Source: Protula sp. h YS-2021 (taxonomy: Eukaryota; Annelida; Polychaeta; Sabellida; Serpulidae). From it: a stretch of 64,000 nucleotides of DNA. Below, one piece after another: positions 32,501 to 63,995 of this stretch. The stretch's first letter is position 1; each line of letters starts with the position of its first letter. A program made the position numbers and the translations under genes. Location: assembly GCA_949752745.1 (NCBI GenBank), contig OX457025.1, positions 101,190,439-101,254,438 on the forward strand, given 5' to 3'. Under the pieces are notes generated by a model. The model was not told where the DNA came from, searched no databases, and was given only the letters and a program-made list of their open reading frames with translations.

Positions 32501-35500
32501 AAATTGATAGCTTACGAAAAACAGACTTACACATAGAAGACCTAAGCCGCCGTTTATAGAACTTTAGACGGTACAAGACAAATTTAAACCACATAATTGA
32601 AGAAAATGTTAAATTCAGTGTTAACGTGCACATTTGACTTAGGGGCATATTTGTCTATTCTTCTCTCTTTATCGTGTAGCCAGAGTGAATTCAAGTTGTA
32701 CTTTTAACTAATTTTCTTTACTTCCATTTTAGCTATGTTGCTAGGGTGAGGACAATGCACAGTTTTCAATCAGGAACGATTTTGTCTGTACTTTCTTCTT
32801 GACCTTGCTCCATTATTATTTCTCTGATATAAAGTTCCTATGCTTAGATTGCTCACAGCGTTGATGGTAGGGTCTGGTTTGTCATGCATGACCTTGCCAC
32901 GTACAAAGAGAAAGTATTCATCGGTAACATAGACCAAAACACGCCTGTCAGCAACCACGTGCCCGGCCATAGACCTGCGGCTTACGTCAGGTAACCTCCT
33001 GACCACCCATAGACCTGCGGCTTACGTCAGGTAACCTCGTGACCACCCATAGACCTGCGGCTTACGTCAGATAACCTCGTGACCACCCATAGACCTGCTG
33101 CTTACGTCAGATAACCTCGTGACCACCCATAGACCTGCGGCTTACGTCATGTAACCACGTGTCCGGCCATAGACCTGTGGCTTACGTCAGGTAACCACGT
33201 GTCCACCCATAGACCTGCGGCTTACGTCAGGTAACCGCGTGTCCACCCATAGACCTGCGGCTTACGTCAGGTAACCACGTGACCATCCATAGACCTGCGG
33301 CTTACGTCAGGTAACCACGTTTCCACCCATAGACCTGCGGCTTACGTCAGGTAACCACGTGTCCGGCCATAGACCTGTGGCTTACGTCAGGTAACCTCCT
33401 GACCACCCATAGACCTGCGGCTTACGTCAGGTAACCTCCTGACCACCCATAGACCTGCGGCTTACGTCAGGTAACCTCGTGACCACCCATAGACCTGCGG
33501 CTTACGTCAGATAACCTCGTAACCACCCATAGACCTGCTGCTTACGTCAGATAACCTCGTGACCACCCATAGACCTGCGGCTTACGTCATGTAACCACGT
33601 GTCCGGCCATAGACCTGTGGCTTACGTCAGGTAACCACGTGTCCACCCATAGACCTGCGGCTTACGTCAGGTAACCGCGTGTCCACCCATAGACCTTCGG
33701 CTTACGTCAGGTAACCACGTGACCATCCATAGACCTGCGGCTTACGTCAGGTAACCACGTTTCCACCCATAGACCTGCGGCTTACGTCAGGTAACCACAT
33801 GTCCGGCCATAGACCTGTGGCTTACGTCAGGTAACCACGTGTCCACCCATAGACCTGCGGCTTACGTCAGGTAACCACGTGTCCGGCCATAGACCTGCGG
33901 CTTACGTCAGGTAACCACGTGTCCACCCATAGACCTGCGGCTTACGTCAGGTAACCACGTGTCCGGCCATGGACCTGTGGCTTACGTCAGGTAACCACGT
34001 GTCCACCCATAGACCTGCGGCTTACGTCAGGTAACCACGTGTCCACCCATAGACCTGTGGCTTACGTCAGGTAACCACGTGTCCACCCATAGACCTGCGA
34101 CTTACGTCAGGTAACCACGTGTCCGGCCATAGACCTGCGGCTTACTTCAGGTGACCACGTGCCCGGCCATACACCTGCGGCTTAGACCTGCTGCTTTTGC
34201 AAGTTAACATATGCCAGTCCTAGTTGCATCAGATAGCCCCGTGCGCTCGTATTTACATCGGACAATCCCATACGCGGTCATGGATCTGCGGCACCATTGA
34301 GGAAACCAGTCTGAGGCCTGTTGCTTACGCCAGTGTTGAAACTCACGAATGAACTGGAATTGTGTCTGCAGCGCCCTAACGTAATTAATTATCAAGATCG
34401 TTAAGCGGTGTCAGATGCCAAGGTGTTAAAAGCTACAGCTACAGTATTAAACATTTCTTTTACGTGGCATGACTATCAAAAATAATCCAGCTCACCGATG
34501 TTTTAAATAAACATTTCAAATAATGCGTGTAATCAATTGCTCTTGCAATGTTGAGTTTATGATAGAAATTAGAATGATTTACCAAGACGTAATTTTAAAT
34601 TAGGTATCCCTCCTGTGCTGTTGTTGATAAAGCCATCGCTTTACATTCAGAAATCAATCAATGTTACCGTATTTGTTCTGTGGTGTAATAACTTGTTAAG
34701 AAAAGAGAAAATTAGATACAGTTTGAATACATAGAAAAATGCAAATTTATATCATATAAAATGCATGAGTTTAATATCTACCCAGGTTGTATCCTCAAGC
34801 CTGGCATGTACAAGCCGCAGTGAGATGGGAAATATATGGCTGTTTGATTAGTAAGTGAACTGTTGTAAAGACTGATCAATAAGCATCATCACTAATTTGC
34901 ATTAAAAATGAATATACAATATTTGAATGACACTAAAGCGATCAACGTAGAATTTTTACTGATATCAGACTTTAAAAATTTGGCTGAGTAATTATATTCA
35001 GTTAGATCTGGAATCCAATATAGTTGCTGGACGGTTATATATATATATATATATATATTTGTTCATAATACAGTGGAATAACGAACACTTGTTTTTCACA
35101 AGGATTGCGCTCTGTACACAAATGTAATCCAACACTCACAACCGTTCTGCTCACAGGTAGCTGCACTCTCAATTCATGTGCGAATGGTGGCACGTGCGTT
35201 GATATACCGATACCGGAAAAATTCTACTGCCTATGTCCTAATGGTTTCACTGGACAATTATGTGACAGTACGCTTGAATAGTTATCAATTGAAAATTATA
35301 TTTTTATAGCTAATACTAAACTATTTTTTATTGAAAAAGGAATCAGAGGCATTGCGTATAAATATGTAAAAACATATAATAGTATAAAAATAATATAAAA
35401 ATAAAAGTTGAACAATTCAAACAAAAACTTTCACTCTGTTATTATATTTTTAAAGGTGTTTCATAGGATAAATAAAAATGTAATATTTTTGGCTCTTATC

Positions 35501-63995: not shown

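Follow-up and report, generated by a model that had tools for sequence, protein, structure and literature searches.

Minisatellites whose unit spans an exon-intron boundary, known as mirages, have been described in amphioxus, where Adh3 and the globin genes BflGb6 and BflGb9 are among the hosts (PMC3087553), and have been extended to PGBD5 and troponin C (PMC3902484). According to the accessible part of the former report, the interior of these arrays turns over with the edges left out, and the arrays are linked to intron gain (PMC3087553), a process for which tandem duplication of AGGT has been proposed (PMC3087553; PMC4974935); the connection between junction duplication and intron gain that was made in the original prediction for the present locus had thus already been published for amphioxus. 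Human relatives of these repeats include IFI6 (6-16), in which each minisatellite unit is able to act as a donor (PMC4526556), and duplicated genes in which minisatellites at exon-intron boundaries alter intron structure, 27 intron modifications being given in the accessible text (PMC2812944). Among the literature matches listed, judged from titles and the first lines of abstracts and with most subscription papers outside this scope, no mirage was found in a mollusc.

Here we analyse a 64,000-nt stretch of DNA from the annelid Protula sp. (the window), which carries repeats of this already known kind and probably represents a mirage case outside the chordates, in a new phylum. The amphioxus mirages have 2 to 7 copies in the available description, whereas the arrays reported here reach about 30, and, unlike those of amphioxus as there described, a single unit may hold part of an exon, a donor, an intron and an acceptor. 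RT-PCR suggests regular splicing of the amphioxus mirages, according to the same partly accessible source, while the present arrays are known from DNA sequence alone. The likeness to IFI6 lies in the many units that could each act as a donor; the downstream units of IFI6 do serve as donors in the accessible account (PMC4526556), whereas the later donors of two of our arrays lead to a stop codon. The human duplicated-gene repeats, in contrast, come from a comparison of paralogues in segmental duplications and average four units of 30 bp (PMC2812944, accessible part). If mirages occur outside chordates they are not a lancelet peculiarity, and arrays such as these would offer natural tests of two questions: how the spliceosome selects a single junction from a series of near-identical copies, and whether introns are still being gained through junction duplication.

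Gene models and anatomy of the four large arrays

Open frames, together with splice consensus and homology, served to build the gene models (Table 1). Four large arrays were located by Tandem Repeats Finder (TRF) where the original prediction had placed them, and each contains a predicted splice junction: the donor of discoidin exon D3 (32990), the acceptor of F-box exon F6 (57203) and the donors of F-box exons F7 (57971) and F12 (61631). None of the first three unit lengths (40, 25 and 151 bp) is divisible by 3, and the F12 units are spaced 129 to 142 bp apart. The further claim, that the units span exon-intron borders and so multiply decoy splice sites, holds for the homology-backed D3 and F6 junctions, is likely for F7 and is provisional for F12, where it is least certain. 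In each array the copy adjoining the exon is predicted, on the basis of frame and homology, to be the authentic junction, with the rest of the array intronic. It had also been claimed that the frame-keeping copy always lies at the array edge, which is the case for D3, F7 and F12, but at F6 the frame is kept by 4 of the 12 acceptors.

Table 1. Predicted exons, tandem arrays and degenerate junction copies in the window.
Feature	Position	Strand	Basis and remarks
Transporter exon 4 (M4) donor and degenerate copy 35 bp downstream	14481-14537	+	Junction comparison
Discoidin (F5/8 type C) exon D3	32859-32990	+	Ends AG/GTAACC, phase 2; D3-D4 join matches PF00754
40-bp donor array, x30.8	32953-34184	+	TRF; copy 1 is the predicted end of exon D3, remainder intronic
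Discoidin exon D4	34786-34850	+	Gene model; reached stop-free from D3 donor 1
F-box gene exons F1-F5 (ECT2L/FBXO16-like)	54152-56626	+	Gene model, Pfam, protein homology
25-bp acceptor array, x11.8	56917-57208	+	TRF; last copy is the predicted start of exon F6
F-box exon F6	57204-57439	+	Gene model; homology across junction
Degenerate upstream copy of F7 acceptor and exon start	57613-57710	+	Junction comparison
F-box exon F7	57808-57971	+	Gene model; exon aligns with molluscan proteins
151-bp donor array, x3.1	57871-58344	+	TRF; copy 1 is the predicted end of exon F7
F-box exon F9	60196-60296	+	Open frame and splice consensus only
Degenerate mini-copy (44 nt) of exon F9	60370-60413	+	Acceptor-like and donor-like ends
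F-box exon F12	61502-61631	+	Weak donor AAG/GTATTC; open frame and splice consensus only
132-bp array, x18	61541-63951	+	TRF; unit holds 3' part of predicted exon F12, donor, C-rich tract and ATAG

The donor array of D3 can be regarded as a secure junction array, the prediction being backed by homology across the splice, in that D3 joined to D4 matches PF00754 (24.3 bits, a score below the Pfam cut-off of 28.2). Among the first eight donors tested, donor 1 was the sole stop-free route to D4; from donors 4 and 7 the D4 frame is regained, but only past stops. GT is kept in 26 of the 30 copies and lost in four, and the score of the authentic donor (6.4) recurs unchanged in 22 of the 29 decoys. 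Both edge copies have GTGCCCGGCC in common, which is absent from every interior copy, and an 11-unit (440-bp) block recurs inside the array as an internal segmental duplication, the two versions differing at 3 of about 430 positions. This is the usual turnover of a minisatellite, with a homogenised interior and edges left out, as in the amphioxus mirages. The motif GTCAG occurs both in the exon sequence just 5' of the array and in the D3 donor itself.

The F-box protein predicted from exons F1-F6 matches F-box-like (42.4 bits) and F-box (30.9 bits) in Pfam, and its top named matches, among candidates limited by protein length, come from Gigantopelta (51% identity over 90% of the query), Pinctada and Plakobranchus, the bit scores for molluscs being 352, 337 and 278 against 207 for vertebrates. 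In the tree it falls within the ECT2L clade (support 100/100) and groups with the protein P0025 (90/91), its position among the molluscs not being resolved. Across the F6 acceptor the protein aligns insertion-free with the Gigantopelta, Pinctada and Plakobranchus sequences, and this second homology-backed junction likewise makes the F6 acceptor array, as predicted, a secure one. AG is kept in all 12 acceptor copies, and the open frame is kept by four of them (57203, 57128, 57056 and 56981), so that alternative use of these four acceptors is possible.

The F7 array comprises three donors of identical score (8.6) and is likely to be a junction array, since the exon aligns with molluscan proteins, though the next exon found is out of phase. 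Direct joining of F7 to F8 is ruled out (F7 ends in phase 2 and F8 starts in phase 0), and an extra exon may lie within the F7-F8 intron or within the assembly gap of exactly 200 N at 58594-58793, which falls in the intron after exon 7. The authentic phase-2 donors predicted for D3 and F7 spell AG/GTAA and AG/GTAG respectively, and an exon that runs on to a later donor meets a stop (7 of 7 later donors tested for D3 and 2 of 2 for F7) because the phase-2 donor itself makes one.

The F12 array, with donor, intron and acceptor in one unit, was the most striking of the original prediction and is the least secure as a splice structure, because of a weak donor, an exon without homologue and the lack of a confirmed next exon. 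The score of the F12 donor, 0.9, lies almost at the bottom of the range of 0.8 to 9.6 found for the 21 other donors scored, the D0 donor being left out. All 18 copies keep the donor. Exons F8-F12 have mutually consistent phases, and no clear homologous stretch was seen for them in the alignment with molluscan proteins. The repeated ATAG that would act as acceptor arises where a C-rich tract is joined to an AG that belongs to the exon in copy 1; it is followed by TAA and, in the reading frame of F12, constitutes a double stop. The putative mini-introns are very short (40-53 nt), and the exon part, otherwise 89 nt, is one base shorter or longer (88 or 90 nt) in 5 of the 17 decoys. The mean identity of copy 1 (0.920; range 0.918-0.943) does not clearly separate it from the interior. 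Inclusion of one copy would change the frame, which then stays open to the end of the window, and inclusion of two or three would lead to a stop; after the last ATAG, close to the window end, a short open frame is a candidate for exon 13. As in intron gain by AGGT duplication, the F12 unit combines a donor and a newly formed AG that resembles an acceptor, but here the decoy introns are putative, have a weak donor and measure only 40-53 nt.

The transporter is the third gene for which junctions were modelled. One of its exons matches MFS_1 at 23.9 bits, below the cut-off of 33.4, and a protein search in which the 7993 candidates sharing most words were scored returned nine proteins, the best at 28% identity. 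Together with the molluscan top matches of the F-box protein, this does not favour amphioxus as the host, since annotated lancelet proteomes would be expected to contain a closer match to the transporter.

Duplicated junctions and enrichment over chance

For each of 50 modelled junctions (transporter exon 1 and genes without a model being left out), the 30-mer centred on the junction was compared, ungapped, with all positions 10 to 700 bp away, and a match with at most 9 mismatches was taken as a copy. A second copy was found at eight junctions, namely the acceptors of F6, F7 and F9 and the donors of F7, F9, F12, D3 and M4. Five of these have at most 7 mismatches, and the remaining 42 junctions have 11 to 16. 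Degenerate junction copies had been predicted beside transporter exon 4 and three F-box exons (5, 7 and 9); those at exons 7 and 9 and at the transporter exon are borne out, while the F5 donor has no second copy within the limit (11 of 30 mismatches), a 16-bp repeat near F5 (56628-56674) beginning on the intron side.

The original prediction also held that tandem repeats hit boundaries more often than chance would allow. In a rotation test, with every array reduced to a single unit and the junctions shifted by rotation along the window, 8 of 50 junctions were duplicated against 2.58 expected (P = 0.011); under the stricter limit the count was 5 of 50, with 1.51 expected (P = 0.031). The F-box gene gave 6 of 23 (P = 0.023) and 4 of 23 (P = 0.039) at the looser and stricter limits, discoidin 1 of 14 at both (P = 0.27 and 0.12) and the transporter 1 of 13 (P = 0.48) and 0 of 13 (P = 1.0). 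With exon interiors removed, the figures were 8 of 50 against 2.52 (P = 0.009) for the whole window and 6 of 23 against 2.10 (P = 0.012) for the F-box gene. For the rotations by gene and those without exon interiors, the position of the D0 donor was off by one base; with it corrected, the whole-window count was again 8 of 50. The excess was kept without F12 (7 of 48, P = 0.023), weakened when only homology-backed exons were used (5 of 40, P = 0.067) and was lost without the junctions of the four named arrays (4 of 46, P = 0.22).

At the level of seeds, 4 of 15 arrays taken from the TRF output span a junction against 1.02 expected (P = 0.02), with 3 of 4 in the exon-dense F-box gene (P = 0.09); the other 11 lie off modelled junctions, several of them where no gene was modelled. 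These probabilities refer to arrays that were picked after the fact, as striking, and genes without a model would add junctions. Minisatellite arrays, merged into one list, add up to 10,688 bp or about 17% of the sequence of the window, a share that seems high, so some junction hits are to be expected. The excess over chance is modest and unproven.

Origin of the arrays

We consider the arrays to be, probably, mirage-type minisatellites that arose by chance tandem duplication at a junction and were tolerated through splicing. A small duplication would straddle a splice junction by chance, and the array would then grow into the intron by slippage or unequal exchange. This would be near-neutral as long as splicing can use the copy nearest the exon, at the outer edge of the array, and discard the rest, with mis-spliced transcripts presumably decaying, whereas duplications inside exons would be purged where their length is not a multiple of 3. 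The account is supported by the outermost copies, which give proteins that match homologues. The decoys look unconstrained, with length drift at F12 (5/17), loss of GT at D3 (4/30) and a relaxed frame. Given that authentic donors and most decoys score alike at D3 and F7, splicing, if accurate, must go by position. Also in favour of tolerance, the unit of a repeat that lies within a coding frame (6538-6594) is 24 bp long, in contrast to the non-multiples of 3 of the junction arrays. Against it count the junction hits, which exceed the expectation from tolerance alone (8/50 against 2.52, P = 0.009), and copy 1 of F12, which does not stand out clearly from the interior (0.920 within 0.918-0.943). 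The window shows no sign of purging within exons: the duplicated fraction across the three genes is 0.071 in exon interiors and 0.055 in introns (F-box, 0.142 vs 0.077; discoidin, 0.059 vs 0.010; transporter, 0.002 vs 0.062), the exon interiors of the F-box and discoidin genes being more duplicated than their introns, in part owing to arrays that extend into exon sequence.

It is unlikely that duplication was targeted to junctions, with transcribed splice junctions acting as hotspots through co-transcriptional structure, microhomology between CAG in the exon and the CAG/GT of the junction, or replication conflict. The excess of duplicated junctions would agree with such targeting (P = 0.011 for all 50, P = 0.009 with exon interiors removed), as would the GTCAG motif that the D3 donor shares with the exon bases preceding the array; yet the excess drops to P = 0.067 with homology-backed exons and to P = 0.22 without the four named arrays, gives P = 0.27 in discoidin and P = 0.48 in the transporter taken singly, and 11 of the 15 listed arrays lie off modelled junctions. 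The number of bases shared at the array start (0 in 4/4) is uninformative, array starts having been set where matching stops. R-loops favour G-rich RNA, and an R-loop origin is not favoured for D3, F7 and F12, because their coding strand is C-rich (GC skew -0.20, -0.18 and -0.39), so that three of the four arrays speak against it; F6 has the opposite skew (+0.55), but only 26% G+C. Of the common mechanisms put forward in the original prediction, tolerance by selection fits better, in view of the one-base length changes in F12 decoys and of the stops that later donors of D3 and F7 run into. The wider proposition carries equally little weight with us: that splice junctions are true duplication hotspots in a non-chordate lineage, that throughout the animals mirages generally and repeatedly supply decoy splice sites and raw material for new introns, and that F12 is a live series of duplications of a partial exon and a whole intron. 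Still more improbable is that the arrays are in use, as alternative donors and acceptors or as poison exons regulating their host genes. The splice dinucleotides are largely kept (D3 donors 26/30, F6 acceptors 12/12, F12 donors 18/18), 4 of the 12 F6 acceptors are frame-keeping, and repeat units are alternative donors in human IFI6 according to the accessible text (PMC4526556); however, retention of the dinucleotides follows from array homogenisation, the later donors of D3 (7/7 tested) and F7 (2/2) read into a stop, one added F12 copy changes the frame and two or three reach a stop, and mini-introns of 40-53 nt are very short. We give least credence to assembly artefacts, that is, false haplotype duplication or repeat mis-assembly in some of the arrays. 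The 200-base gap lies about 250 bp past the F7 array, the 440-bp D3 block recurs with few mismatches, and one amphioxus mirage was mis-assembled in the draft genome according to the accessible part of the report (PMC3087553), but many copies carry private variants.

Chance duplication followed by tolerance thus remains our preferred reading. A need for a junction-specific mechanism is not demonstrated by the data, and a single window cannot decide whether junctions are favoured or merely tolerated targets.

Other repeats in the window

A 19-bp-based array (46760-47753), organised as a 76-bp higher-order unit present 13 times, lies away from the modelled junctions. On the minus strand, the open frame at 6140-6886 encodes C2H2 zinc fingers and an acidic tail, the latter with the 24-bp tandem repeat at 6538-6594. 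A 36-bp array of 65 copies (19844-22178) coincides with a minus-strand open frame of 750 amino acids made up of 12-residue repeats (19746-21998); its unit being a multiple of 3, it could encode a repeat protein or be a mere stop-free repeat.
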